The position numbers were made by a program, and so were the translations under genes. From assembly GCA_029976805.1 (NCBI GenBank), contig JAPOLY010000023.1, positions 1-36,255 on the forward strand: DNA of 36,255 nt, in the 5' to 3' direction. The notes under the pieces are model-generated. The model was not told where the DNA came from and did not search any database. It saw only the letters and a list, made by a program, of their open reading frames with translations. Shown here piece by piece: positions 3,167 to 36,255 of this stretch. Every line of letters begins with the position of its first letter. Position 1 is the first letter of the stretch. The DNA is from a bacterium. Its GTDB lineage: Bacteria > Planctomycetota > UBA8108 > UBA1146.

Positions 3167-3619
3167 TCAGGGAGTCCAGGACGCTTCATCGATGGCCTGA
3201 TTCGCCAGACCGTCACATCGTTCATTCTCTTCATGACCCGCATGGCCTTCAACCCAACTCCAGCGAACCTGGTGAGTCGCAGCCAATTCGACCAACTCTT
3301 TCCACAAATCGTCATTGACGACCGGCTTGCCATCCGACTTTTTCCAGCCGCGGCGTTGCCAACCCTTGACCCATTCATTCATTCCCTTGACCACATATTG
3401 GGAATCGCTGAACAGTTCGACAGAACTGGGTCCGGGCAATGACTTCAACGCCTCGATCACCGCCATCAGTTCCATGCGGTTGTTCGTGGTTTGACGCTCT
3501 GCATCATACTGAACCGACTCTTCTCCTGAAGAGGCGCGGACAATATACCCCCACCCTCCGGGACCGGGATTCCCCCTGCAGGCTCCATCGGTCCAGATTC
3601 TGAAATCAGGCTCTGCCAT
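3167..3619 (-). CDS. rnhA: Ribonuclease HI
   Basis: The enzyme hydrolyses the RNA strand of RNA-DNA hybrids, clearing R-loops and Okazaki primers in the cytosol. Started at the ATG at 3619 (MAEPDFRIWTDG; AGAAGGTGA upstream), it is 150 residues, the usual size for RNase HI. The longer ORF, starting 26 codons upstream, would overlap rnr and has no homology there. The four metal ligands and the His are present: Asp11 (TDGACRGNPGPGGWG), Glu50 (TTNNRMEL), Asp72 (FSDSQYV), His126 (EGHAGHEEN) and Asp136. The basic protrusion (EWVKGWQRRGWKK) is also intact, so it is the HI class that does not need an extra hybrid-binding domain. It starts 7 nt after the rnr stop codon, implying co-transcription and perhaps coupled translation with RNase R. 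Confidence 0.96.
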   Translation of the reverse strand: MAEPDFRIWTDGACRGNPGPGGWGYIVRASSGEESVQYDAERQTTNNRMELMAVIEALKSLPGPSSVELFSDSQYVVKGMNEWVKGWQRRGWKKSDGKPVVNDDLWKELVELAATHQVRWSWVEGHAGHEENERCDGLANQAIDEASWTP

Positions 3620-3626
3620 CCGTCTG

Positions 3627-5912
3627 TCACCTTCTGTCTTTACGACGACCTCGGCCGCCTGTTTTCTGACTCGATCGCCGAGACTTTCCGGAGCCATGTC
3701 GGCCCTTCTTTGAAGGCCGTGAGGAGCGCGGCTCGGCGTGGCCCCCGGAGCCGCGGCCCCGGCGAGCTCCTGGTCTGGTATGAAGGTAACGTAGATCGAT
3801 GTCTCTTTGGAGGGGATCCACTCCTTCCAGTTCGATCTCTACCGGATCTCCCAATCGGATCATGTTGCCCTTGTTGATCCCTCTCAGTGCAAACTGGGTT
3901 TCACTGAACACATAGTGATCATCCCGAAGTTTCGAGACGTGGACAAATCCATCGACCAGAACTCCGTCCAATCGAACATGAAACCCCTGATCTCTCACTG
4001 AAGTCACCATTCCGGAGAATCGCTCTCCCACCCGATGTTTCAACCAGGAAATCGCCCTCAATCGGCTCATGTCCCTTTCGGCTGCCTCTGCGGCCCGCTC
4101 ACGGGTCGAACAGGTTTCAGCCAGTTCATGCAGAGTGACAGACTCCTGACTCATCTTTGGCCCCGCACTCCCGGTCAGGAAAAACCGATCGAGTGTCTGA
4201 TGAACCTGTAAATCCGGGTACCTGCGAATCGGCGAGGTGAAATGGCAGTACTCCTGCTTCTGCAGGGCAAAATGAATCTCTTTGGCAGGACTGTACTCAG
4301 CCCTGTTCAGACTTCTCAATAATGCGAAAAACACCACGGGAGCGACGTCTGAATCGGCCACCACGCCCATCATTTGTGGCAAGTCGTCTACGGAGTTGAC
4401 GGTGGCTTCGGGAACGAGAACCCGACAGAGCTTGATAAACTTGTCCAGCTCCGCTTCATCCGGCGGTGAGTGAATCCTTCTCAGAATCGGTAACTCATGG
4501 CGTGAGGCGAAAGTCGCCACCGCCTCGTTGGCCGCCAACATGCACTCCTCGACCAACCCGTGGGCCGCCAACTGCTCGCGGGAAATCACATCGATGACTT
4601 CTCCCTCATCATCGAGGACCAACTTCATCTCCTCGATATCCAGTTGCAGTGATCCCTGACGCAAGCGCCGATTCAACAGGACCTGCCGGAGCTGATTGAG
4701 GAGAATGATCTGTTCCTGCAAATCTTGTCCCACCGATTCAGGCGCTGCTCCATCGATGGTCGACTGTGCTTCCTCATAAGTAAATCGATGGGCGCTGCGA
4801 ATCACCGCCTTCTCGAGTTGTATATCGAGAAATTGCCCCTTCGCATCCAGCTCCATCCAGGCGACTTTCGCCAGACGGTCTTCGTGTGGACGCAAAGAGC
4901 AAAGACCATTGCTCAATCGTTCCGGCAGCATCGGAATCGTCTTGCCCGGAATGTAGACACTCGTTCCCCGAAGCAGTGCCTCCTGATCGATAGGGTCACC
5001 CTGACTGACAAAGTGACTCACATCAGCAATAGCCACTCCCAATCGAAATCGTCCCTCGGGCAATGCTTCCGCACAAATGGCGTCATCGAAGTCTTTGGCG
5101 TCGATGGGATCGATGGTGACAAAGGGCAAATCCCTGCGATCAACTCGCTCTGCCATTTCTTCTGCGGAGATCTGTTCTGGAAACTTCTCGGCGAGTTCTT
5201 CGACTTCTTTGGGAAACTCTTCTCGCAATTCGTGCTCTGCACACACCATCTGCAAATCCGCAAGCCAAGTCCCCTCAGGAGCCCAGTGACAGAGAACCTC
5301 CCCCGGTGGCAATCCATCCACCGCCGTTCCCTGCCTCAATCTTGCGAGAACACGATCTCCATCCTCTACCCCACTGCGAAAACCGGGATCGATCCATACT
5401 TCACGAACGCTTTCGTGGCGGGCTGGTTCCACCACTCCTCCTCCGCCATGAACCTCCCTGTAATATCCGGGGAAGACTCTTGGACTACGCTCGATCACTT
5501 CCAGAATTTTTCCGGATCGACCTTCACCCCCATATTCCTGGTGTCCCTTGCGCCTTGATTCCAGCGCAACGAGGACCCGGTCCCCATGGTGGGCATCGCG
5601 AAGTCGGCGGATCGGAATAAAGACATCGCCCCGCGGATCAACCACCAATGAACGGACAAATCCGAACCCTCGACGGGCGATGGACAGGGTGCCAACAAAC
5701 CAGTTCTCTCGACTGGTGCAAAACCATCCCCTGGCGAACAGGAAAACCATCTCGCCCAGGTTTTCCAGCTCTCCGAGTGCTTCTTCCAGCTCTTTTGGAT
5801 CGACCTTTCCCCAATCGGGCAACTCCTGCAGCTCCGAAGTCTTGAAGGGGCGGTACTGATCACTGCGATACCATGTTCGAATCGCTTTGAGCAGCTCAGT
5901 GGAAGGTTTCAC
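3627..5912 (-). CDS. rnr: Ribonuclease R (RNB-family 3'-5' exoribonuclease)
   Basis: RNase R degrades structured RNA processively from the 3' end and acts in mRNA and rRNA quality control. The 761-residue protein begins at a GTG preceded by AGGTGA. Domains in order: N-terminal winged helix (about 5-65), cold-shock/OB domains (about 70-220), and the RNB catalytic domain from about residue 262. The catalytic segment is TIDPIDAKDFDDA, with Asp268, 274, 276 and 277 as metal ligands. The core continues with VAIADVSHFV and RLSNGLCSLRPHEDR, then an S1 domain near residues 635-715 (GERFSGMVTSVRDQGFHVRL). The last about 45 residues form a very basic Arg/Lys/Ser/Gly tail, which in RNase R helps unwind and bind RNA. 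It is first in the run rnr-rnhA-FKBP-ppiD, and its promoter must lie in the short gap before the pil operon terminator. Confidence 0.96.
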   Translation of the reverse strand: MKPSTELLKAIRTWYRSDQYRPFKTSELQELPDWGKVDPKELEEALGELENLGEMVFLFARGWFCTSRENWFVGTLSIARRGFGFVRSLVVDPRGDVFIPIRRLRDAHHGDRVLVALESRRKGHQEYGGEGRSGKILEVIERSPRVFPGYYREVHGGGGVVEPARHESVREVWIDPGFRSGVEDGDRVLARLRQGTAVDGLPPGEVLCHWAPEGTWLADLQMVCAEHELREEFPKEVEELAEKFPEQISAEEMAERVDRRDLPFVTIDPIDAKDFDDAICAEALPEGRFRLGVAIADVSHFVSQGDPIDQEALLRGTSVYIPGKTIPMLPERLSNGLCSLRPHEDRLAKVAWMELDAKGQFLDIQLEKAVIRSAHRFTYEEAQSTIDGAAPESVGQDLQEQIILLNQLRQVLLNRRLRQGSLQLDIEEMKLVLDDEGEVIDVISREQLAAHGLVEECMLAANEAVATFASRHELPILRRIHSPPDEAELDKFIKLCRVLVPEATVNSVDDLPQMMGVVADSDVAPVVFFALLRSLNRAEYSPAKEIHFALQKQEYCHFTSPIRRYPDLQVHQTLDRFFLTGSAGPKMSQESVTLHELAETCSTRERAAEAAERDMSRLRAISWLKHRVGERFSGMVTSVRDQGFHVRLDGVLVDGFVHVSKLRDDHYVFSETQFALRGINKGNMIRLGDPVEIELEGVDPLQRDIDLRYLHTRPGARRGRGSGGHAEPRSSRPSKKGRHGSGKSRRSSQKTGGRGRRKDRR

Positions 5913-12229: not shown

Positions 12230-13654
12230 TCAGGCGATGATGTCCTTCACCACACGCCCATGGACATCTGTGAGGCGGAAGTCCCTGCCGGCGTAGCGAT
12301 AGGTCAGACGCTCATGGTCGATGCCGAGAAGGTGCAGCATGGTCGCATGCAGGTCATGGACATGTACCTTGTCGATGGCAGCGTGGTAACCGAACTCATC
12401 GGTCTCACCGTAAGAGAAACCACTCTTTACACCGCCCCCTGCCATCCACATGGTAAATCCATGGGGATTGTGATCACGGCCGGTACCGTCCTGGGCCATC
12501 GGTGTTCTGCCAAACTCTCCGCCCCAGAGCACGAGAGTGTCTTCCAGAAGGCCCCGACTTTTCAGATCCTTGATCAGACCTGCGATGGGTTTGTCGACTT
12601 CCTTGGCGTTATTCGAATGATCCCGTTCAAGATTGGTGTGTTGATCCCACTTGTAGGAGTGGGTGCATTGAATGAAACGAACTCCAGACTCGGCGAAACG
12701 CCGTGCCATCAAACACTGGCGACCAAAGTTGTCGGTCGGTTCCTCGTCAATTCCATAAAGTTCGAGAGTCGCTTCGGACTCTCCTGAAAGATCCATCACT
12801 TCCGGTGCTTCGGTTTGCATCTGGAAAGCGAGTTCAAAGGAACGTATCCGAGCTTCCAGTGCATCGTCGGTCTCGCGTTGACCCAGGTGTTCAAGGTTGA
12901 TGTCCTCCAGTAACTCCAACTGAAGCTTCTGAAGTCCTTCATTCCAGTGTTCATTTTTCAAATGATGGATGGTGGCTTCCCGCGCCTTGACGCCGGCATG
13001 TCCAATCGGGGTTCCCTGATATCGGGCTGGCAGGAAACCGCTCGACCAATTGTTGACTCCCCCGTGTCCCAGAGTCGGGCAGATCGTAATGAATCCTGGA
13101 AGGTTGGAGTTCTCCTCACCCAGACCGTACTGGATCCAACTGCCCATACTGGGGCGAACAAAAGTGTCGCTTCCCGTATGCAATGCCAGCAATGCTCCAC
13201 CGTGGGCATCATTGGTTCCATGAAGGCTCTTGATGAAACACAACTCATCGACGATTCCCGCCACATGGGGAAACAGGGTGCTGGCCCACATTCCCGACTC
13301 TCCGTGCTGGCTGAACTCCCAGGGAGATCGCAAAACACCGCCATATTGGCTCGGCTCGGCAAAGGTGACGCGGGGCAAGGGGATCGACAATGGCTTGCCG
13401 TGATCCTTGATCAAACGTGGCTTGTAATCAAAGGTGTCGACCTGCGATGGACCACCGTGCATGAAGAGGAAGATCACTCTTTTCGCCCGTGGAGCGTGAT
13501 GGGGTTGTATCGGACGATCTGCAAAGAGATTCGAAGTACCCAACAGACCTTCAAGAGCCAGAGCTCCGAAACCGGCGCTGCAGCCTTTCAAAAGACTCCT
13601 TCGCGAAATCAGCGGAATTCCATCTGCTCCAGATTGACCCGGTTGAATGATCAC
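12230..13654 (-). CDS. DUF1501 family protein (Tat-exported, sulfatase/alkaline-phosphatase-like fold)
   Basis: I start at the GTG at 13654. It lies 8 nt after the preceding gene's stop with GAGGA just upstream, and it gives a compact Tat signal (ISRRSLLKGCSAGFGALAL, twin Arg at residues 18-19). The longest ORF would overlap the previous gene by about 58 bp. The 474-residue mature part shows the DUF1501 pattern: VIFLFMHGGPSQVDTFDYKP after the signal, SLHGTNDAHGGA, GRQCLMARRFAESGVRFIQ, LWGGEFGRTP and a terminal DLHATMLHLLGIDHERL. The His/Asp/Glu-rich motifs resemble metal ligands of the alkaline-phosphatase superfamily. The substrate is unknown; in Planctomycetota these genes nearly always sit beside a DUF1549/DUF1553 gene, as here, and are suspected of acting on sulfated or other complex polysaccharides. 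This last point is inference from the literature pattern. Confidence 0.92.
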   Translation of the reverse strand: MIIQPGQSGADGIPLISRRSLLKGCSAGFGALALEGLLGTSNLFADRPIQPHHAPRAKRVIFLFMHGGPSQVDTFDYKPRLIKDHGKPLSIPLPRVTFAEPSQYGGVLRSPWEFSQHGESGMWASTLFPHVAGIVDELCFIKSLHGTNDAHGGALLALHTGSDTFVRPSMGSWIQYGLGEENSNLPGFITICPTLGHGGVNNWSSGFLPARYQGTPIGHAGVKAREATIHHLKNEHWNEGLQKLQLELLEDINLEHLGQRETDDALEARIRSFELAFQMQTEAPEVMDLSGESEATLELYGIDEEPTDNFGRQCLMARRFAESGVRFIQCTHSYKWDQHTNLERDHSNNAKEVDKPIAGLIKDLKSRGLLEDTLVLWGGEFGRTPMAQDGTGRDHNPHGFTMWMAGGGVKSGFSYGETDEFGYHAAIDKVHVHDLHATMLHLLGIDHERLTYRYAGRDFRLTDVHGRVVKDIIA

Positions 13655-13662
13655 GTCGTTCC

Positions 13663-16600
13663 TCAATCCAGATACAGAAACTCGCTCGAAGCGAGCAGGG
13701 TTTGACAGAAACTGTGCCACATTTGCTGATCAGAGAAATCTTCCTGCCGACCACTGGAGTTTCTCCATTGGCGAACTTTTTCGAAGTAATTCTTGGCCCT
13801 TTGCTTTTCTTCCGCAGTGGCATTTCGACAAAGAATCTGCTGATAGATTCTGTCCAGACGATCCGAGTCCGAGGCTTCTTCGGCCAGCGCCTGATCAACG
13901 ATTTTCTCTGACGCATTCAAAACCATCGGCGAATTCAAAAAGTAAAGTGCCTGATGGGGAACCACTGTCGAAGGCCTGCGGGCGATGTGGATCGATGGAT
14001 CGTTGTAATCAAATGCACTGAACAACTCGTACATCGCGTTACGAATGATCGGAAGATAGATCGACCTTCGAGGACGGTCATAGCGTGCCTGATTGTTCGA
14101 TTGGTCATTGGTCACATAGCCCCTGTTGCCCGTCATGAGCAGTGTTCCACCCATTTCACGATCCAACTGCCCACTGACCCTCAGGACAGAATCACGGACC
14201 GCTTCTGCGCCGAGACGCCGACGATTCTGACTCCAGAGAAGCCGATTCTCCGGGTCATCGATCATGTACTCCGCATGGCTGATGACCTGTTGACGCCAGG
14301 CCGTGCTGTCGATGATTCTCCGAATCAACCTTTTGATGGACCAGCCATCAGCAATGAAATCACGAGCCAATCGATCGAGGAGCTCCGGGTGACTGGGAGA
14401 AGATCCTCTCAGTCCAAAGTTCGAGGGGGTGCTGACAAGTCCCTCCCCAAAAAGTTGGAGCCAGACTCGATTAACCAGAACTCTGGCAGTCAGTGGGTGG
14501 TCGGGATGGAGCATCCATTCTGCCAGTTGAAGACGCCCGCTCTGATCGGAAGGCATCGTCGGTCCTGTCAAAATATTGCCGATCACCGACATGACTCCTC
14601 TGGGAGTGGATTCTTTTGCCAGACGAAGATGGCTTCCGCGCAGATGCACCGGGATATCAACGATTTCTGCATCGCGAACTCCCAAAGCCATGGAAGCCGC
14701 AGGGGGCTTCATTTGATCGAGTTCGTCCAACTCCTTTTTTGAAGCGGTCAGCTCCACTTTCAGATTTTCAGGGGCATGACGGTCGGCGGTCTGCAGCAGT
14801 TCATACCAGGGACCTGACACTCCTCGGACGCTGGAGCTGATGGCTTTCAATGCTTCGGAAGCGTCATCTTGAGTCGAAAGCTGAAGCAGGTTCTTCCACC
14901 GTTGGGCACGCTCTTCCAGAGTCGAAACACTTGCAGTCCCGAGTAACTCGACCACTTCGGGGGCCAACTGTTTCTTTTGCTCAGCCGTGAGGAACTCCGG
15001 CTGACCATCATGAACAGGCTCTGATGTCCTTTGCCTGGAGCGTTCAGCCCATGCCCCCCAAAGAGGATCTTTCAGTGTCGATGGCCTTTGCAGGAACTCC
15101 AGCCATGCCATCACTCCCTGGTCTTGGACAGGCGAATCAAGGTAGGAGGGTGGCAGAAGGCGAATTCGATCCAGATGGGGAACGGCGGTCCCCCCCACCA
15201 ATTTGAATTGGTGCTTGCCCAGAGAAAGCTCCCTTTTGCCGATGGATTCCCAACGCAAACCCTCGACACTCCAGGTTCCGCTGACATTTCCCAATACCTT
15301 GTCTTCAATTAATTCACCGTCCAGATACAACTTCATCGTCCTCGACTCGAGGGCGGTGTAGCGAATCTGGATTTCGTGCAACCCTTCTTCAAGAATTTCC
15401 AAATCCCAAGTGACCTGCTGTTCCCCGCCCTGAACAGTATGGGCGAGAGGAATTTGCTCATTGCCATACATTCCGGTATTCAGACCCAGCGTCATGGCGC
15501 TGTTCTCAACGACTGTTTTTCCGGGAATTCTCTGGACCCAATCGAGCGCTTCCAACAACTGCTCATCCATTTTCTCGAGGAGCTTGTCTTCATAGTTGTC
15601 GCGAACAACTTCAAGTTGATTCTGACGACGCTCTTCCACACCTGCTCGGCGGGATTCCCAATCTTCCCGATCGGATTTTTCCCGGGGAGTCTCCAGGGAA
15701 ACCTCACGCCAGCGGGATACAAACTCAAAGTTTTCCAGGGTACTGGTTGAGCGAAAGATCCCAGCCATGGCGTAGTAATCTTCATCGGTGACAGGGTCAA
15801 ATTTGTGATCATGACAGCGGGCACAGCCAAGCGTCATTCCCAAAAACACCTGACCTGTCACGTCCAACTGTTCATCCACAATATCGATAGCCAGTTTGTC
15901 CTTGTCCTGCTCCGCCAACATCTTCGGGCCCAAGGCCAGAAAACCGGTACCGATCTGCTGGTCACGCCACTGCTGATCCGTCTCCGGTTCAGGAAGCAAA
16001 TCCCCTGCGATTTGCTCCAGCAGAAAGCGGTCGTACGGTTTGTCCTGATTGAAAGATCGGATCACGTAATCCCGGTAACGCCAGGCTTCACCGAATGCCA
16101 GATTCTCATCGAGACCGTTGGAATCGGAGTAACGAGCCAGATCCAGCCACCACCGCGCCCAGTGCTCACCGAATGCCTTCGACTCGAGAAGTTCGTCGAT
16201 GTAGTTGTCGAGGGCCTCTTCGCTCCCTGCCTGCTGAATCTCTCTCCAACGCTGCCAGTCGAGGGGCAACCCTGTCAACAACTGGGCAGCCCGGCGCGCA
16301 CGGGTGAATCGATCCGCTTCCGGGGCAAAAGACCACCCCTGTTGTTCCAGTGAGGCCAGAATGAAAGCGTCCAGATCCTGACGAACCTGTGAAGTCTCTT
16401 TGACTACGGGAACTCCGGGATCTTTCAAAGGCTGAAATGCCCAGTGCCGACCCCGTTCGGCCATCGGCGGGATCCCCTCGACCCCTTCGCTGCCTGAAGC
16501 GTGGGCAGGCTTTCTCGGGTCCACCAGTCCGTCGTCGATCCATTTCCTGAAAACCGACTTTTCGTCCCCGGTCAGGGGCCCCTCAGGGGGCATCCCCAAC

Positions 16601-16875
16601 TCACCGCCATGACCATCCAACAATTGGACCAACAAACTCTCGCTGGAGTTTCCGGGGACTGCTGCAGGCCCCCGACCTCCTCCTGAAAGCAGGGACTCGC
16701 GGGTGGACAGATCGAGTCCGCCTTCACGTCTGCCGGGATCGGGACCGTGACAATCGAGGCACTTTTCAACCAGCAAAGGACGAACACGATTTTCAAAAAA
16801 CCGAAGATCGACATCGTCTGCATGAAGAGGTGGCATCAGGAATGCCGCTGCCAACAAGACGATCACAATTCTCAT
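13663..16875 (-). CDS. Planctomycete cytochrome c (PSCyt1) - DUF1549 - DUF1553 (PSD1) protein
   Basis: The protein has 1070 residues with a cleavable signal peptide (residues 1-19, ending LHA). Residues about 30-120 are a planctomycete cytochrome c-type domain with one haem site, CLDCH (Cys39, Cys42, His43). Residues about 160-370 are DUF1549, which contains a second haem-like motif CARCH (351-355) just before DHKFDPVTDEDYYAMAGIF. Residues about 490-580 are a beta-rich insert with carbohydrate-binding-module-like pattern (EIQIRYTALESRTMKLYLDGE). The C-terminal third is DUF1553, with RVLVNRVWLQLFGEGLV and YDRPRRSIYLPIIRNAMYELFSAFD. It acts outside the cytoplasm, and electron transfer coupled to carbohydrate binding has been proposed for the family, though the reaction is unknown. 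GAGG lies eight bases before the ATG. It forms a two-gene operon with the DUF1501 gene. Confidence 0.93.
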   Translation of the reverse strand: MRIVIVLLAAAFLMPPLHADDVDLRFFENRVRPLLVEKCLDCHGPDPGRREGGLDLSTRESLLSGGGRGPAAVPGNSSESLLVQLLDGHGGELGMPPEGPLTGDEKSVFRKWIDDGLVDPRKPAHASGSEGVEGIPPMAERGRHWAFQPLKDPGVPVVKETSQVRQDLDAFILASLEQQGWSFAPEADRFTRARRAAQLLTGLPLDWQRWREIQQAGSEEALDNYIDELLESKAFGEHWARWWLDLARYSDSNGLDENLAFGEAWRYRDYVIRSFNQDKPYDRFLLEQIAGDLLPEPETDQQWRDQQIGTGFLALGPKMLAEQDKDKLAIDIVDEQLDVTGQVFLGMTLGCARCHDHKFDPVTDEDYYAMAGIFRSTSTLENFEFVSRWREVSLETPREKSDREDWESRRAGVEERRQNQLEVVRDNYEDKLLEKMDEQLLEALDWVQRIPGKTVVENSAMTLGLNTGMYGNEQIPLAHTVQGGEQQVTWDLEILEEGLHEIQIRYTALESRTMKLYLDGELIEDKVLGNVSGTWSVEGLRWESIGKRELSLGKHQFKLVGGTAVPHLDRIRLLPPSYLDSPVQDQGVMAWLEFLQRPSTLKDPLWGAWAERSRQRTSEPVHDGQPEFLTAEQKKQLAPEVVELLGTASVSTLEERAQRWKNLLQLSTQDDASEALKAISSSVRGVSGPWYELLQTADRHAPENLKVELTASKKELDELDQMKPPAASMALGVRDAEIVDIPVHLRGSHLRLAKESTPRGVMSVIGNILTGPTMPSDQSGRLQLAEWMLHPDHPLTARVLVNRVWLQLFGEGLVSTPSNFGLRGSSPSHPELLDRLARDFIADGWSIKRLIRRIIDSTAWRQQVISHAEYMIDDPENRLLWSQNRRRLGAEAVRDSVLRVSGQLDREMGGTLLMTGNRGYVTNDQSNNQARYDRPRRSIYLPIIRNAMYELFSAFDYNDPSIHIARRPSTVVPHQALYFLNSPMVLNASEKIVDQALAEEASDSDRLDRIYQQILCRNATAEEKQRAKNYFEKVRQWRNSSGRQEDFSDQQMWHSFCQTLLASSEFLYLD

Positions 16876-28629: not shown

Positions 28630-29029
28630 GCTTCCCCTTGGTCTCTGTGGGTTTGGTGAGACTTCAGGCAACTTGCCGAAGTCGGGCTCACACCCTCGAC
28701 ACGGGCTATCTGGACCCCAAAACCACCTCGCCTCCGTCTGCATTTTCCCCGAAAACCGTCGAAGGAACGATTCGCCTTGGCGAACCGTTGCAGGGAAGAG
28801 GTGATAACAACCCGGCATGTTCCCCTGAGGTCACATACACGGATCATACTGATTGTAACCGTTCACTTGTCAGTGCAGAAGTGAATCGGAAACCTGTGTC
28901 ACCTCCCTGGCCGTTTCCACAAGTCATTATTTTACAGGGGTTTGCAAAATAGGATCTAACCGATTCCAAGCCTTGCAATCCCTTCTGGCAACAAGTAGAC
29001 ATAGACGATCCCCAATCCACGGAGTTCCG
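28630..29029. other. Divergent intergenic region, leucine dehydrogenase / lolC
   Basis: These 400 bp hold no credible gene; the short ORFs on both strands lack ribosome-binding sites and conserved motifs. An imperfect hairpin (AACGATTCGCC with GGCGAACCGTT, 28766-28789, one A-C mismatch) lies about 140 bp upstream of the dehydrogenase start and would be in its leader. A+T-rich DNA at 28924-28956 (ATTATTTTACAG, TTTGCAAAATAGGAT) is the most promoter-like stretch before lolC. No -35/-10 pair is convincing on either strand. Confidence 0.4.
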
Positions 29030-30445
29030 TTGAAGTACCACGACTACCTGACTCGCCGTTATCTCAGCAGACGCTGGGCACCCTGGGCCGCCACCGTAGC
29101 GGTGGCCCTGGGAGTCTTTTCGTTGCTGACAGTTCTGGCAGTCATGGAGGGCTTCAAAGTCGAAATGCGGGAAAGGATTCGCGGTACCCTCTCCCATCTG
29201 GTCATCGAAGCAGACCCGTTCAGGGGACTCGTCGGGGAAGACTCGCTTCTCAGAACGATCGAATCCATTGACGGAGTCAAGGCTGCTGCGCCACATGTCA
29301 CCACCCTCGCCCTCTACAAGGTAGGCGTCATGGACCACTGTGTTCTCAGGGGAGTAGAGCCTGCCGCCGAGTGCGAAGTTTCCGATCTCGCACGCTTCCT
29401 TCTCTCTGATGTCGAGATCAACGAAATGCTGAATGACCGCTTCATGCTGTTGCCGGCAGATCGCGAGCCGATGCCGGTGGAACAGGTGGAACAGCTCTTC
29501 TCACTGGAACGCAGGAGAGATGTTCTGCGCTGGCGACTGCAGGAGGATCCCGGTTCAGGCTTCTCTGTGGACGCTCCTCCCAAACCCTTCATCGTCGGTA
29601 TCGAAGCATTGCGAAGCGGCAGACTGAGCATGGGCGATGTGGTTCAGATCTCCTCCTACTCTCCCGTCTCTCTGGAACCGTGCTCAGACAATTTTATCGT
29701 CGTCGGTGCATTCCAATCCGGTGTCTATGAACAGGACCTGCGTTGGGCATACACCTATATTCGATCACTCCAGGACACTCTTGAATTGTGGGATGATGAA
29801 GCAGAGGACATGAGACTCTCTGGAATCTCGATCAAACTCGATGACTATTCGCAAGCGGACAAGATCAAAGGCGAGATTCGTCGGGAAGTGGATCGGCGAA
29901 TGTTCCTCGATCAGGATCATCCGGACAAGATTCCCCTGCGCAGTCCATCCTTTGAAACATGGGAGGACAAGAGGGCAAATCTGATTCAGGCCGTCGAAAT
30001 CGAAAAACGCATCATCTCGGTTTTGATGTTGCTCATCGTTGCATTCGCCGCAGGAATGATCTTCCTGATTCTGATGCTGCTGGTGATTGAGAAAGAACGG
30101 GATCTTGGAGTCCTCCGCGCCCTCGGAGCGACCCGCAGTGGAGTCGTCTCTCTTGTTCTGCGCCAGGGGATGTTCCTGTGCACGTTAGGAGCCGCAGTCG
30201 GCCTCTTGGCTGGCTGGGTTTTCCTCGAGAACATCAATGCGTTTCATGATCTGGTCTATCAGATGACCGGGCTGAGACTCTTTCCTCCAAATGTCTATTA
30301 TCTCGAGCGCATTCCAATGGTGTTACGTTGGCAGGACGTTCTTCTCGTCAGCCTCCCGACCCTGATCTTTGGCTTCTTTGGCAGTATTCTCCCGGCTATC
30401 CGGGCGGGCCGCCACGACCCCATCAAGGCGTTGCATCATGAGTGA
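29030..30445 (+). CDS. lolC: LolC/LolE-type lipoprotein-releasing ABC permease
   Basis: This is the inner-membrane subunit of the complex that extracts outer-membrane lipoproteins. The TTG at 29030 has GGAG five bases upstream and puts the N-terminus at MKYHDYLTRRYLSRR, the typical LolC/E beginning. The product has 471 residues with four helices: about 18-38, then after a large periplasmic domain about 320-352 (FLILMLLVIEKERDLGVLRALGAT, the coupling-helix region), 370-395 and 425-450. FtsX/MacB_PCD features are present. It is about 60 residues longer than E. coli LolC; the extra part is in the periplasmic domain near residues 130-190 and is charged. With only one permease gene beside lolD, a homodimeric permease of the LolF kind is likely. 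The end overlaps lolD by eight bases. Confidence 0.88.
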   Translation: MKYHDYLTRRYLSRRWAPWAATVAVALGVFSLLTVLAVMEGFKVEMRERIRGTLSHLVIEADPFRGLVGEDSLLRTIESIDGVKAAAPHVTTLALYKVGVMDHCVLRGVEPAAECEVSDLARFLLSDVEINEMLNDRFMLLPADREPMPVEQVEQLFSLERRRDVLRWRLQEDPGSGFSVDAPPKPFIVGIEALRSGRLSMGDVVQISSYSPVSLEPCSDNFIVVGAFQSGVYEQDLRWAYTYIRSLQDTLELWDDEAEDMRLSGISIKLDDYSQADKIKGEIRREVDRRMFLDQDHPDKIPLRSPSFETWEDKRANLIQAVEIEKRIISVLMLLIVAFAAGMIFLILMLLVIEKERDLGVLRALGATRSGVVSLVLRQGMFLCTLGAAVGLLAGWVFLENINAFHDLVYQMTGLRLFPPNVYYLERIPMVLRWQDVLLVSLPTLIFGFFGSILPAIRAGRHDPIKALHHE

Positions 30446-31190
30446 TCTCTCCTCCTCCCTCCCTGTGATCAATGCCAGAAAGCTGGTGAAGTCATTCCCC
30501 ATGGCGAATGGCTCCGAACTCAAGGTATTGCAGGAACTCGATCTGCAAATAGACGAAGCAGAGATGGTCGCCATCGTCGGAATGAGTGGGGTGGGCAAAA
30601 GCACACTGTTGCATTGCCTCGGTCTTCTCGACACCCCAACCACTGGCGAAATCACGTACCGGGATGGTGACCGTATCTGGCGCTCAACAGATTTGAGCGA
30701 AGATGACCGCTGTCAATTGCGTAACCACTTTATAGGATTCGTGTTTCAATTTTTCCACCTGCTGCCCGACCTCAACGTTCTAGAAAACGTCATGTTGCCA
30801 ACGGTGATCAGTCAAGAGACGGGCGAGTGGAATCGGAACCGCAGCAGTCTCGAAAGCCGGGGTGAAAGTCTGCTGGAGCGAGTCGGACTGAAAGGTCGCG
30901 AGCGTCAATCTCCAGGAACCCTGTCTGGAGGAGAACGCCAACGTGTCGCCATTGCCAGAGCATTGATGATGTCACCCAAGCTTCTTCTCTGCGATGAACC
31001 CACCGGCAACCTGGATTCACGGACCAGTGAAAGTATTCACCAGTTGCTTCGGGAACTGCATCAGGATCTGTCGACTTCGATTTTGGTCGTCACCCATGAC
31101 CCCGACCTCGCTTCGCGAGCAGACCGAAGATTGCAAATGATCGACGGACGCTTCCAGAATGAATCCGCTGATGACCCGGAGACTTCCTAG
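30438..31190 (+). CDS. lolD: LolD-type ABC ATPase (lipoprotein release)
   Basis: This is the cytoplasmic ATPase of the Lol extraction complex with the permease just upstream. I start at the ATG at 30438, which overlaps the lolC stop by eight bases; the longer frame only reads lolC sequence. In 250 residues: Walker A GMSGVGKST (48-56), Q-loop Gln103 (FVFQFFHLLPDLNVLENV), signature LSGGE (161-165), Walker B LLLCDEPTGNLD (181-192), and H-loop VVTHDPDLA. The Q-loop and LENV segments match the LolD/MacB/FtsE subgroup. An acidic/Asn-rich insert of about 10 residues (GEWNRNRSSLESRGE) sits before the signature. The last four bases (CTAG) are shared with the stop codon of the convergent ABC gene. Confidence 0.92.
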   Translation: MSDLSSSLPVINARKLVKSFPMANGSELKVLQELDLQIDEAEMVAIVGMSGVGKSTLLHCLGLLDTPTTGEITYRDGDRIWRSTDLSEDDRCQLRNHFIGFVFQFFHLLPDLNVLENVMLPTVISQETGEWNRNRSSLESRGESLLERVGLKGRERQSPGTLSGGERQRVAIARALMMSPKLLLCDEPTGNLDSRTSESIHQLLRELHQDLSTSILVVTHDPDLASRADRRLQMIDGRFQNESADDPETS

Positions 31191-31813
31191 TAGTCGGAAC
31201 CAACGCCGAGCGGGATGGCTTCGATGTCAGGAATTGCTTCATGGATCGCCAGCAATATCGTTCTGCCAGCGTCCAACTCCCTGTGAAGAACCTCCAGAAT
31301 CCGCTCACGTTGTTCGCGATTCTGTGCAGAAAATGGCTCATCCAGAAGCAGCAGGGGGGCACTCCCACAAAGGGTACGCATGAGTTCTCCTCTTTGGGCT
31401 TCTCCACCGGAGAGCTGGTCCGGACGGCGATCCAACAGAGATTGAAGGTCGAGGGCTGAAGCAGTCTCTTCCAACTGGCCTGCGATTGTTTGACCGGCAA
31501 CCAACTGGGCCTGCTCACGCAAGGTCATGTGTGGCCACAGACCTCGCTGTTGTCCCAGCCAACCGATTCCCCTTTGCCACGGCTCATTCTCAGTGCCCAC
31601 GTCAGAGACGGTTTTGCCGCCAATCCGGATTGTTCCTGACTCGACCTGAAGGAATCCGGCGACCGCTTCGAGAATACTGCTTTTACCAGAACCATTCGCG
31701 CCGACCAGTGAGCGGCACTCTCCCCGCTGAATCTTCAGGGAAACAGGGCCCAGCCTTTGCGCTCCCCTGCATACGACGACTTCAGACAACTCCAGAGTGA
31801 CTTCACTATTCAC
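31187..31813 (-). CDS. Short ABC importer ATPase (iron/thiamine-type), last gene of the five-gene ABC operon
   Basis: The product has 208 residues, starting at GTG 31813 with AGGAG upstream. It has Walker A GANGSGKSS (38-46), a Q-loop within WLGQQRGLWPHMTL, signature LSGGE (134-138), Walker B LLLLDEP (154-160) and H-loop His191. The sequence after the signature, AQRGELMRTL, departs from the usual QRVALARAL. It ends soon after the H-loop and lacks the C-terminal TOBE regulatory region of FbpC/PotA-type ATPases, as ThiQ-like proteins do. It begins 8 nt inside the end of the permease gene, so it should energise that permease. What is transported is not shown by this protein. Confidence 0.88.
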   Translation of the reverse strand: MNSEVTLELSEVVVCRGAQRLGPVSLKIQRGECRSLVGANGSGKSSILEAVAGFLQVESGTIRIGGKTVSDVGTENEPWQRGIGWLGQQRGLWPHMTLREQAQLVAGQTIAGQLEETASALDLQSLLDRRPDQLSGGEAQRGELMRTLCGSAPLLLLDEPFSAQNREQRERILEVLHRELDAGRTILLAIHEAIPDIEAIPLGVGSDY

Positions 31814-33302
31814 CGGTCACTCCTCTCCTTCGAATCATGATCGTAAAAAACAATGTCCAAAGGGTACTGATGACGACCATCGCCAGTGCCAGTCTTGCGG
31901 CTTGTTCATCATTGCGAAAGTGCAATAACTGATGCAACTCCAGCGCTGGGGAGGGGTGCCCCGGTGGGGCCAACAGCAGGGTCGATTGAACCTCACCCAT
32001 GATGAGTAACATTCCAAGAATTGCTCCCGGAAGCAGCACTGGCAGAGACCGAGGTAACAACGCTTTCCAGCGGGCAGAGCCTGGTGGTAACTGAAGCGCT
32101 GCTTTCATTTCAGTCTCGGGAATCATCCATACCGACAACAAGGCAGTCATCACTGCCAGAGAACCCAATTGGGTGATCTGGGCCAGTGAAAGCAACAGAG
32201 GCGTATGATCCAGAGCAAGGGGAATCCACGGCCTGATGGAGGTGGCCAAAGACAACCCGACCAGACTCCCAGGCAAGAACGTCGGCAGGCACCACAGCAA
32301 CAGTGACTTTCGCCTGCGAGTCAAGGCCAGAGCCCAACAGGACAAAAACCCGATGGAGACGATCAGCAATGCCCGCGGCAACTCTCTGAACCCGGCCCAG
32401 ACCGCTTCCAAAAATTCTGCCGCCGCTTGTTCGAATTGCGAGGCCTTCGGCCATGCTGTGAAAATCAGGACGCCAAGAAAGACCGCCACGGGCAACAATC
32501 TCGGAATCCACCAGAGAGAAACCCATTTCGTTGCGGGCAGTCCCACTGTGGTCGGTGCCTGAAAAGAGCGCCCCAACCACAATCCTCTGGGCAATAGCCG
32601 TATCACCCATGGAAACACGAGCAGTATCAATCCAGCGGCCAACCACCAGCCGGAAAGTCCATCGCCGATGGTCAATCGTGCCATGATTCGCCGTCCCACA
32701 CTTTCCACACCGGTGTAGGACGGAATCTCGGTCGCAGGCAACATCAGCAAAAACAGCAGCAGAAGACAACTTCTGCGCCAGGGCTTTTGCATTTGCCAGC
32801 GAAGTTTGAGTGCAGCTCTGGGAGGCAGAGTTCTCAGGGCCTGTTCCTGTGCCACCGGAATCGTGAGAGACAATCCGGAAAGAAGCAAAAACGCCACTGG
32901 AGCCCACCTCAGTGTCAAAAGGAGCACTGCCCCCAACTCGTCACTTGTACCCGCCAACAAGAGTGAAGATCCGATGGTCGCCTGAATCGCAGAAGCGATG
33001 GCAGCAGGTGGGGTCGTAAAAGTGATCAGCAAGCCGGGCAACAACCACAGGAAAGCACCTCTCGGTTGGCGGAATGCAGAGAAGACCAGCGCGTCCAGTC
33101 CACCGACAAGAGTCGCGAGCAATGCCGCAGCAAGAGCCAAAAGAGCCGTTGAGAAAAACAGGGGAACTGCAGACCATGTACTGGCAGCAGCCTCGGAAAA
33201 ATCGCCGCTCAGAGTGTCCTGGTACAGAGTGAGAAGTACAGGAACATAAAATCCGGCGAGCAGCACCCACAGTGGCCAGGTTCGGATCACATTAGAAATC
33301 AT
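31806..33302 (-). CDS. Two-fold binding-protein-dependent ABC permease (FbpB/ThiP-like)
   Basis: The 498-residue protein has about twelve hydrophobic helices in two similar halves, the layout of iron(III) FbpB/SfuB and thiamine ThiP permeases. The second half has a recognisable ATPase-contact (EAA) loop, ETEMKAALQLPPGSARWKALLP. The first-half equivalent, QEQALRTLPPRAALKLR, is less canonical. The ATG at 33302 shares one base with the TAA of the binding-protein gene (TAATG) and the 3' end overlaps the ATPase by eight bases. The cargo should match the neighbouring solute-binding protein, most simply an iron(III) species, but this is inferred from family and not from a ligand site. Confidence 0.87.
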   Translation of the reverse strand: MISNVIRTWPLWVLLAGFYVPVLLTLYQDTLSGDFSEAAASTWSAVPLFFSTALLALAAALLATLVGGLDALVFSAFRQPRGAFLWLLPGLLITFTTPPAAIASAIQATIGSSLLLAGTSDELGAVLLLTLRWAPVAFLLLSGLSLTIPVAQEQALRTLPPRAALKLRWQMQKPWRRSCLLLLFLLMLPATEIPSYTGVESVGRRIMARLTIGDGLSGWWLAAGLILLVFPWVIRLLPRGLWLGRSFQAPTTVGLPATKWVSLWWIPRLLPVAVFLGVLIFTAWPKASQFEQAAAEFLEAVWAGFRELPRALLIVSIGFLSCWALALTRRRKSLLLWCLPTFLPGSLVGLSLATSIRPWIPLALDHTPLLLSLAQITQLGSLAVMTALLSVWMIPETEMKAALQLPPGSARWKALLPRSLPVLLPGAILGMLLIMGEVQSTLLLAPPGHPSPALELHQLLHFRNDEQAARLALAMVVISTLWTLFFTIMIRRRGVTGE

Positions 33303-34297
33303 TAACGATCCAACAAAGCTCTCTCCACATCCTTGATGGCACCCGGCAGAGTCTCGGCAGCAGCACTCCAGTCGATGGTCATGACGCTACCCAAAGAATT
33401 CAGATCCAGCCCTCCCGGGCCCACCTTTGTCCCTTTTCCCAAAGGAACCTGACGACTGGAAGAAGCTGCCAGCATCTCTTCCACCCGGGGACTGAGCAAC
33501 CAGCGAGCCAAAGCTTCCGCTTCCTCCGGATGGGGGGAGCCCTCGATCAAACCCACTACGTTGGGAAGAAGGATGACCCCGTCGTCCTCAGTAAACCCTT
33601 CACCCAGATCGATGCCGCGCCTTCTCACCACCTCGATATCATCCGTATCCGTCAAACCGATCCAGACTTCCCCGGTGATGACACGGTCCCGGCTGGCAGA
33701 ATTGGAAGCGGCGATCCGAATCCTGTTTTCTTTCAATCCCTGTAACCAGGCGGTGAAATCTGCTTCACCCCAGGACCACTTGAGGATTGCCATGTGTGTT
33801 CCGGTCGTTCCCAATCGGGGATCCGCCAGAGCCACCTTGTCACGCCATTGCTCCTCCACCAGATCGCGAACCGAAGTCGGAGGTTTGATTCCAGCGGGCG
33901 ATTGCGGATCCAGAGCCAGAGCTCTCACCCTTCCTGCAAATCCACACCAGCGATTTTTCGGATCTCTCCATTTTGCAGCGATTCCGGGAGCGAAACCTTC
34001 CGGCAAACTTCGGTAGATCCCCTCGCTTGCCAGGCGAACCGATCGCAATGGTTCATTGGACCAATGAACATCACAGCGAGGCCTCTCCTTTTCAGCCCGG
34101 AGTCTCTCGGCCAAACCCACCGTCTTGCTCGCTTCCGTGTCATAGATCGCCTCGACACGGATTCCTGTTTCTTTCTCAAACAAATCCAGAATCTGCTCAG
34201 CGTGCGCTCGGTCATGAGCACAATAGATGGTCACCACCGAGTCACTCTGACCCTGACAGCCCGCGACAAAGAGAAAAATCCAAAGCCAGTTTTTCAC
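33302..34297 (-). CDS. Extracellular solute-binding lipoprotein (iron(III)-type family)
   Basis: The GTG at 34297 overlaps the preceding stop codon (GTGA) and has AGGAGG four bases upstream; it gives a lipoprotein signal with lipobox VAGC (Cys14). A TTG six codons earlier is less likely. The 331-residue protein follows the type-2 periplasmic-binding pattern of FbpA/FutA proteins: VVTIYCAHDRAHAEQILDLF, TGIRVEAIYDTEASKTVGLA, CDVHWSNEP, and later GEVWIGLTDTDDIEV and NVVGLIEGSPHPEEAEALARW. A Tyr pair near the C-terminus that holds iron in FbpA is not obvious, so another anion or metal complex is possible. It supplies the permease and ATPase encoded next and is anchored to the cell membrane rather than free. 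Confidence 0.88.
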   Translation of the reverse strand: MKNWLWIFLFVAGCQGQSDSVVTIYCAHDRAHAEQILDLFEKETGIRVEAIYDTEASKTVGLAERLRAEKERPRCDVHWSNEPLRSVRLASEGIYRSLPEGFAPGIAAKWRDPKNRWCGFAGRVRALALDPQSPAGIKPPTSVRDLVEEQWRDKVALADPRLGTTGTHMAILKWSWGEADFTAWLQGLKENRIRIAASNSASRDRVITGEVWIGLTDTDDIEVVRRRGIDLGEGFTEDDGVILLPNVVGLIEGSPHPEEAEALARWLLSPRVEEMLAASSSRQVPLGKGTKVGPGGLDLNSLGSVMTIDWSAAAETLPGAIKDVERALLDR

Positions 34298-34986
34298 TTG
34301 GCCTCCTGCTGCCAACGCCCATCAAAAAGAGTCAACGTCCTGTCTGCTCTGGCAGCAACCTCGCGATCATGAGTTACCAGAATCAGGGTCGTCTGAAAAT
34401 CCTCGCGCAATCCTGAAAGCAGATCGAGGATCTGTCGACTGTTTTCACTGTCGAGATTTCCCGTGGGTTCATCACAGAGAAGCAGTTCCGGTTTCTTGAC
34501 CAATGCTCTTGCGATGGCCACTCTCTGGCGCTCACCCCCACTCAATTGGGACGGGCGATGGCTACTTCGATCTGCAAGCTGAACCCTCTGCAACACCTCT
34601 TCCGGGCTTCCATGATCTTTACTCCCCCTGCGATACTCGAGAGGAAGGCGCACATTTTCCAGAGCACTGCGATCTCCCAAAAGATGAAACGATTGAAAGA
34701 CAAATCCAAGGGTCTCATTACGCGCCCGTGCCATTTCTTTTTCTGACAGGGAAAGAACATCCTTGCCGGAAAGAAGGTAGCGCCCCCGGGTCGCCCGATC
34801 GAGGCAGCCAAGAATCTGTAACAGGGTGCTCTTGCCACTTCCTGAAGACCCGACGATGGCCACAAACTCACCTGATTCGATCTGCAAGTCGACTCCGGCA
34901 AGAGCAAGGACTCCCGTTTCTTCATCACCGTAACGGCGCTCGATCCCCTGCATGTCGACGATCAGTTTTTTATCTGTAGCAGCCAT
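34294..34986 (-). CDS. LolD/MacB-type ABC ATPase
   Basis: I start at the ATG at 34986, which shares its A with the permease stop codon (TAATG) and has GGAGAG seven bases upstream; the ORF extending to 35130 only reads permease DNA. In 230 residues: Walker A GSSGSGKST (46-54), Q-loop FVFQSFHLLGDRSALENVRLPL, signature LSGGE (148-152), Walker B LLLCDEPTGNLD (168-179) and H-loop VTHDREVA. These place it in the MacB/LolD/FtsE class that works with FtsX-type permeases, here the gene just upstream. It is a distant paralogue of the lolD at 30438-31190. It is unusual that the next gene in the operon is an importer binding protein. Confidence 0.92.
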   Translation of the reverse strand: MAATDKKLIVDMQGIERRYGDEETGVLALAGVDLQIESGEFVAIVGSSGSGKSTLLQILGCLDRATRGRYLLSGKDVLSLSEKEMARARNETLGFVFQSFHLLGDRSALENVRLPLEYRRGSKDHGSPEEVLQRVQLADRSSHRPSQLSGGERQRVAIARALVKKPELLLCDEPTGNLDSENSRQILDLLSGLREDFQTTLILVTHDREVAARADRTLTLFDGRWQQEAK

Positions 34987-36239
34987 TACAAATCTCTCCG
35001 TCCACAAAGCACTGGAGCAGGATCCAGTGTGGCAACACGCCAGGCAGGAACCAATGCAGAAAGCATTGCTGTTCCGATCAATGCACCAAAGGTGCCCACC
35101 AGAGTGGTCGGCGGGAGCCAAGCCTGCCAACCGAGAACCGGAACGATCCCCACTTCGATCACTTTCAATCCGAGCCAGTAACCGGGAGCCAGCGCCAAAA
35201 ATGCAAGAATTCCGGCCTCAAGAAAAACCGGTGCTGTCACTTGTCCAATGGCAGCACCCTCAGCCCTTCGCAAGGCAACCTCTTCCAGACTTTCGTCGAT
35301 GGCCAAGAGCGAAATCGTCGCTGTCAGAATCAGGACGATGATCAGATTGAGAACCCAAATGAAGTGCCCCAATCCCCGAAACCGGTCGACCATTTCGAGA
35401 ATGACTCCGGTCCACTCTTTTTGAACATGCAGGTAGACACCTTTTTTGTTTTCCCCGATCCACGAGGCAACAGTGGGCTCGACTGTAGCGACCGTATCGA
35501 CATCCCTGACATCCAGGATGACCACAGAAGGCTCATCGACTCCAGTCCGCCAAGGCATGTACAGATTCAGGAACTCAAGCCTTCTTGCAGGGACCGATCG
35601 GGCTTTGGATGTGGCATCAAAAGAACTCATGTGCTGACGCAACAACAAGGGATCCTTGACGACGCCGACGATTTCGCAATCGATCGCCTGTCCCTTGCGG
35701 ATCGATCGGAAGGATTTTCCCAGTGCGTCTTCCGCCTGCGGATAAAACTTCAAAGCCAGGGCTTCGTCGATCACTGTCGGCACGGGATTTTCCGGATCTT
35801 CCGGCCAACGGTCGCTGTCCGTGAGAAATCTGCCAGCCAGCATTCCTGACCGAAGCACAGACTGAAAACCGGGAGTGGTGGAGACCATGGTGTGTTGCCA
35901 CGAAACGTCCTGGTGGGTGGTCAATCCCAGATCGATCACCAAAGGTGACATTGAATCGATCATGGTTCCCACCCTTTGGAAAAGGGAATCCAGATCCGCT
36001 TCCGCCACCGGTACCCCCTCTGTACTGGTTCCCAAAGAGAGAGTGCCAAGAGAGATCGGATTGACGAGGGCAACCAGATCGGTTCCGAGTGCTTCCAGAT
36101 CATGACCGATGGCTTTACGCCCACCTTCGATGGTCCCCACGATGCTGACGACGGATGCCAATCCGAGAACAAAGGTCAGGACCATCAACAGTGCCCGGAC
36201 TTTGTGACGAATGATTCGAGAGAGGGCTTCAGAGATCAT
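34986..36239 (-). CDS. FtsX/MacB-type ABC permease
   Basis: The 417-residue protein has one N-terminal helix (about 15-37, ALLMVLTFVLGLASVVSIVG), a periplasmic MacB_PCD-like domain of about 250 residues, and three C-terminal helices (about 290-315, 335-357 and 375-402). EEVALRRAEGAAIGQV is the coupling region and AWRVATLDPAPVL the end, matching the family's A..P...L ending. GAGAGG lies before the ATG at 36239. With the following ATPase it forms a MacAB/LolCDE-like unit without a MacA-type adaptor in view, so it may extract lipoproteins or peptides, or act as a mechanotransmission module. Bases 36240-36255 hold only its leader; an earlier gene in the operon may end just outside the window. Confidence 0.88.
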   Translation of the reverse strand: MISEALSRIIRHKVRALLMVLTFVLGLASVVSIVGTIEGGRKAIGHDLEALGTDLVALVNPISLGTLSLGTSTEGVPVAEADLDSLFQRVGTMIDSMSPLVIDLGLTTHQDVSWQHTMVSTTPGFQSVLRSGMLAGRFLTDSDRWPEDPENPVPTVIDEALALKFYPQAEDALGKSFRSIRKGQAIDCEIVGVVKDPLLLRQHMSSFDATSKARSVPARRLEFLNLYMPWRTGVDEPSVVILDVRDVDTVATVEPTVASWIGENKKGVYLHVQKEWTGVILEMVDRFRGLGHFIWVLNLIIVLILTATISLLAIDESLEEVALRRAEGAAIGQVTAPVFLEAGILAFLALAPGYWLGLKVIEVGIVPVLGWQAWLPPTTLVGTFGALIGTAMLSALVPAWRVATLDPAPVLCGRRDL

Positions 36240-36255
36240 CGATCAACGCCTCTCA

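Follow-up and report, generated by a model that had tools for sequence, protein, structure and literature searches.

ATP-binding cassette (ABC) transporters of the MacB family, or type VII (MacB, LolCDE and YknZ-like proteins), pair LolD/MacB-like ATPases with permeases that have four transmembrane segments and a MacB-like periplasmic core. Within this type, systems with separate ATPases and with heterodimeric permeases are known (PMC5985334). Importers of the FbpABC/ThiBPQ/PhnSTUV type are built differently, from a binding protein of FbpA-like fold, a two-fold permease and a single ATPase, with the genes in the order binding protein-permease-ATPase and the binding proteins belonging to the FbpA, AfuA and P5PA cluster. 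A precedent for a MacB-like part standing in one operon with other ABC parts is ytrGABCDEF of Bacillus subtilis, which comprises two ATPases, two membrane proteins and the MacB-like YtrF (PMC8060467); the likeness is one of description, and the ytr operon differs in holding no binding-protein-dependent importer of the FbpA kind. Our literature search returned nothing relevant on an operon of FtsX/LolD genes plus a binding protein. Here we describe such a locus, at positions 31187 to 36239 of a 36,255-nucleotide (nt) stretch of DNA (the window) from a bacterium of the Planctomycetota (UBA8108; UBA1146; contig JAPOLY010000023.1, of which the window is the whole). Judging from sequence comparison, we consider it likely that the locus belongs to a six-gene operon derived from a single ancestral event that joined two complete ABC transporters, which are co-expressed and form separate complexes.

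All five genes in the window lie on the minus strand, from the start of the FtsX-type gene at 36239 to the end of an ATPase gene at 31187. The first module consists of FtsX-B, a MacB-like type VII ABC permease (34986..36239), and a separate LolD/MacB-like ATPase of 230 amino acids (aa) (34294..34986; ABC_tran, 112 bits). The second consists of a substrate-binding protein with a GTG start and an FVAGC lipobox (33302..34297; SBP_bac_6, 52.8 bits), a two-fold (fused) importer permease of 498 aa (31806..33302) and a short importer ATPase of 208 aa (31187..31813; ABC_tran, 111.5 bits). From FtsX-B on, successive genes overlap by 1, 4, 1 and 8 nt, and the coordinates here bear out a preliminary description of the same DNA. 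The 1-nt overlaps are the TAATG at the FtsX-B/ATPase and binding protein/importer permease junctions, and the 4-nt overlap, GTGA (34294..34297), joins the ATPase to the binding protein and thereby one module to the other.

Only 16 nt of contig remain upstream of the FtsX-B start before its end at 36255, so that the operon is truncated in the window. Directly upstream of FtsX-B, 15 of the order's 17 genomes carry another FtsX gene, here named FtsX-A (about 440 aa; MacB_PCD and FtsX domains above the Pfam cut-offs, four hydrophobic segments), so that the operon would comprise at least six genes, in the order FtsX-A, FtsX-B, separate ATPase, binding protein, two-fold permease and short ATPase. 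We found no FtsX-A in the assembly that the window belongs to, an absence compatible with a gap in the assembly where the contig stops. Just upstream of FtsX-A, relatives carry a divergent gene for a conserved lipoprotein (L025:14648-15118, L030:4258-4863) that has no Pfam match and whose place would fall beyond the end of the window's contig.

We observe the same arrangement of genes across the whole order, in six genera and down to 36-49% protein identity, with the binding protein present in 17/17 genomes and FtsX-B in 16/17. The five genes stand in order on a single contig in 13 genomes of the family; the locus is divided between contigs, consistently with the common order, in two genomes (G014 and G010), and in another (G012) the contig starts inside the ATPase gene. 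Every contig of the order is compatible with the same arrangement, one of them with an insertion: in G016, the only member of the second family sampled, 3.5 kb separate the modules, which remain on the same strand, and the permease and ATPase genes overlap by 4 nt (ATG at L033:9181). We reject a chance junction in view of this order-wide conservation. The preliminary description had proposed a search for the same order across Planctomycetota, and its reach proves to be well beyond one strain, as the 17 binding proteins attest, while elsewhere in the phylum the modules are placed independently. With each start taken as the candidate codon closest to the stop upstream of it, the module junction is an overlap of 1 or 4 nt in every one of these 13 family genomes; the FtsX-B/ATPase junction inside the first module shows gaps of 53-98 nt in six of the 13, so that the link between the modules is tighter than the one within module 1. 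The comparison of phylogenies, likewise proposed earlier, gave trees of all six genes that concur on the main groups. Mirror-tree correlations among the six are high (r of 0.88-0.99), but a common species history by itself produces such values, and we do not read interaction from them. By eye, the insertion in G016 (L033:3169-6608) encodes a dockerin/FG-GAP repeat protein and a nucleotidyltransferase-like protein.

Outside the order the two halves occur apart, in agreement with the earlier statement that the two kinds of ABC system are normally separate; their joining here is real, tight and conserved. The binding protein was found in 158 of the 244 genomes sampled from the phylum (the order's own included), and module 2 stands without FtsX-A/B at 40 loci, each in a different family outside the order, with the permease and/or ATPase recognised downstream of the binding protein in most; at one of these loci (L135) a LolD-like gene lies on the opposite strand. 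Module 1 is found alone, in the order FtsX-A/FtsX-B/ATPase, at three loci of the class (L147-L149, L147 being cut by a contig end) and also at eight loci of five other families of the phylum (L151-L158), with no binding protein nearby at these stand-alone loci. Since each module is found alone elsewhere, each half is self-sufficient, and because the halves are still separate in relatives, the effect of joining them is directly comparable. The binding proteins of the order form one clade (support 0.989), which together with the concordant gene trees points to one joining followed by vertical descent; it most likely happened before the order diversified. At the stand-alone module 1 loci of families f57/f58 (L153, L154, L155, L156), we recognised by eye adjoining DUF58/BatA-like and CvpA-like genes, a second setting in which this module recurs.

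With respect to the first module, which had been called MacB/Lol-type, the MacB half of the label holds and the Lol half does not. FtsX-B matches the Pfam models MacB_PCD (62 bits) and FtsX (33 bits) and has four hydrophobic segments, and thus shows the four-segment permease, MacB-like periplasmic core and FtsX C-terminal domain of MacB-like type VII systems. MacB is its top match in the Protein Data Bank (PDB) by profile and by fold, the predicted model (predicted local distance difference test, pLDDT, 76; predicted template modelling score, pTM, 0.54) being used for fold class only. FtsX-B gives no match to the NCBIfam LolCE model (TIGR02212) at E ≤ 0.001, its best NCBIfam match being ADOP, and the module 1 ATPase scores 249 bits against the LolD model (TIGR02211), below the cut-off of 307.75. 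By profile and predicted fold, we assign the first half to the MacB-like type VII ABC modules and not to the Lol modules. It departs from MacB itself in that the ATPase, unlike that of MacAB-TolC, is not fused to the permease, and in having two unlike permeases; no adaptor (MacA/HlyD-type) gene was recognised by eye in the flanks of relatives, where no family search for adaptors was made.

Each genome of the order carries one strong LolCE-type locus, which is not FtsX-B and which in the window's family is the operon's convergent neighbour. In the window it comprises, on the plus strand and outside the operon, a LolCE-type permease (28973..30445; TIGR02212, 193 bits, below cut-off) and a LolD-type ATPase (30369..31190; TIGR02211, 251 bits, likewise below cut-off). 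This suggests a one-permease (homodimeric) Lol system at 28973-31190 that falls below the family cut-offs, and the Lol role would be better filled by this pair than by module 1. Release or maturation of the binding lipoprotein by the first module, as the preliminary description had suggested, could draw on the lipobox, which the window and most genera have, on the LolD-like ATPase and on a type VII fold common to LolCDE. The lipobox cysteine is nevertheless absent in three genomes of one genus (G009, G011, G015) and two of another (G010, G012), all of which keep the locus, and the lipobox is also variable outside the order. The lipid anchor therefore seems dispensable where module 1 is kept, and the protein is a lipoprotein in the window's genome without being one in all its relatives. 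With the labile lipobox, a separate LolCE-type permease in each genome, an FtsX-B nearer to MacB than to LolC/E and the modules 3.5 kb apart in the order's other family, we reject such service to the lipoprotein, which we rate as very improbable indeed. The convergent LolD-type gene and the short importer ATPase gene share the CTAG at 31187-31190, where each reads its TAG stop, and a comparable tail-to-tail overlap is present in close relatives.

The binding protein had been described as of an iron type, a label that its ligand positions contradict. Its AlphaFold model (pLDDT 92.8) has an FbpA-like fold, with HitA as the top PDB match (template modelling score 0.82/0.88) and HitA, VmFbpA and FutA among the best fold matches. 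In Moraxella FbpA, three tyrosines are all required for iron (PMC10182148). Here, the tyrosine pair (YY) of FbpA/FutA aligns to TDTDD (216-220), nearly invariant across the phylum, and the third tyrosine position falls in a G-T-T stretch, so that Fe(III) binding through tyrosines is rejected, its ligands being absent. AfuA once passed for an iron binder and proved to bind sugar phosphates (PMC10182148). Invariant in the sampled phylum set are D29, E55, W79, R123, R125, G163, N199, T216 and D217. The residues of the ligand pocket are alike inside and outside the order, which indicates that the substrate was probably unchanged by the joining. An Rfam search of three relatives returned no RNA family that would name a substrate. 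In Planctomycetota, the "iron" label on FbpA-fold proteins and the "Lol" label on FtsX/LolD pairs can both mislead.

The two-fold nature of the importer permease is upheld by topology, with 10 hydrophobic segments (about 10 transmembrane segments by hydropathy) and two EAA-like loops, as well as by homology. No Pfam or NCBIfam model matched the window's permease itself; BPD_transp_1 was matched by 11 of 25 homologues, and homologues outside the order also match ModB and PhnU/PhnV-type models. The importer ATPase is about 200-215 aa long in all 16 loci of the order, versus mostly about 340 aa outside it, and the alignment places the difference in a C-terminal domain that is present in homologues outside the order and absent throughout it; the 208-aa protein thus lacks the C-terminal regulatory domain of the FbpC/PotA type. 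In all 16 loci, the D-loop has Gln and no Asp (SAQN in the window, elsewhere SGQH, SAQF etc.), whereas importer ATPases outside the order with a readable D-loop keep Asp or Glu (SALD-type). Together with the missing Fe(III) tyrosines, these two features set module 2 apart from FbpABC-type importers. From their distribution, the C-terminal loss and the D-loop change would date from the time when the order diversified or from an earlier one.

Several of these observations weigh against two transporters that are expressed together and work apart. The ATPase changes are order-wide, and the importer could perhaps no longer be an ordinary solo importer. One may then picture the modules as one functional unit in the order, in which an ATPase with a Gln D-loop and without its C-terminal domain would be tuned or controlled by the MacB-like machine; inner-membrane uptake would then be tied to a type VII machine acting in the periplasm, a link of which we know no example among ABC importers, and we regard this arrangement as distinctly improbable. 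The fixed stoichiometry or joint task that the preliminary description had read from the tight overlaps finds no support. No promoter-like site came out of a simple sigma-70 scan, a test that tells little in Planctomycetota, and terminator-like matches occurred only at chance level. Furthermore, general synteny is high in the family: LeuDH and the convergent LolCE/LolD pair, which is transcribed separately, flank the operon on both strands and are conserved there just as well, so that adjacency alone is no proof of shared function. The joining might then be a neutral accident kept by slow rearrangement only, with no selection on shared regulation. However, in G016 the LolCE gene lies on another contig (C281) while the two modules stay neighbours within 3.5 kb on one strand, and a start-stop overlap marks the junction in all 13 family genomes though the exact overlap varies, so that we find this explanation quite unlikely.

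For the co-expressed pair of separate transporters, which we prefer, module 1 would be a type VII MacB-like machine made of an FtsX-A/FtsX-B heterodimer with separate ATPase subunits, in which ATP hydrolysis in the cytoplasm is coupled to motions of the periplasmic domains and serves efflux or work on the envelope. Module 2, with its binding protein, two-fold permease and a dimer of the short ATPase, would act as a type I importer whose substrate is a small solute of the periplasm, not tyrosinate-bound Fe(III) and more likely anionic organic or chelated. We infer a single transcript on which the start-stop overlaps couple translation of both modules, so that both would be made together under one condition, and the two complexes most likely work separately. 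Two complete, unlike ABC transporters would thus have been joined once in one operon that is kept across a whole order. Both kinds of transporter are already known, and the joining is a real but modest regulatory novelty.

The two complexes might also serve one compound in opposite directions, the importer taking up a metal chelate, a cofactor or a phosphorylated compound and the MacB-like module expelling the emptied carrier or the excess. The order-wide coupling with start-stop overlaps and the MacB-like best matches of module 1 are consistent with this, and the pyoverdine pathway of Pseudomonas offers a physiological precedent, in which the FpvCDEF importer and the efflux pump PvdRT-OpmQ serve one compound (PMC3813593). 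The pyoverdine pump has adaptor and outer-membrane parts, in contrast to the present locus, where inspection by eye showed no gene for an adaptor or an outer-membrane factor and neither siderophore genes nor other biosynthesis genes were recognised nearby. PvdT is MacB-like, and to our knowledge FpvCDEF and PvdRT-OpmQ are not encoded in one operon of overlapping genes. As module 1 also occurs elsewhere in the phylum without an importer, and module 2 without module 1, we hold paired uptake and efflux to be unlikely.

Overlapping genes are also found elsewhere in the window, in both cases on the minus strand. At 3167-5912, open reading frame calling with candidate starts gives an overlap of about 70 nt between an RNase H-like and an RNase R-like gene. 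At 12230-16875, two genes share about 58 nt; by eye, one encodes a DUF1501-type protein and the other a large planctomycete cytochrome-type (PSCyt/PSD) protein.

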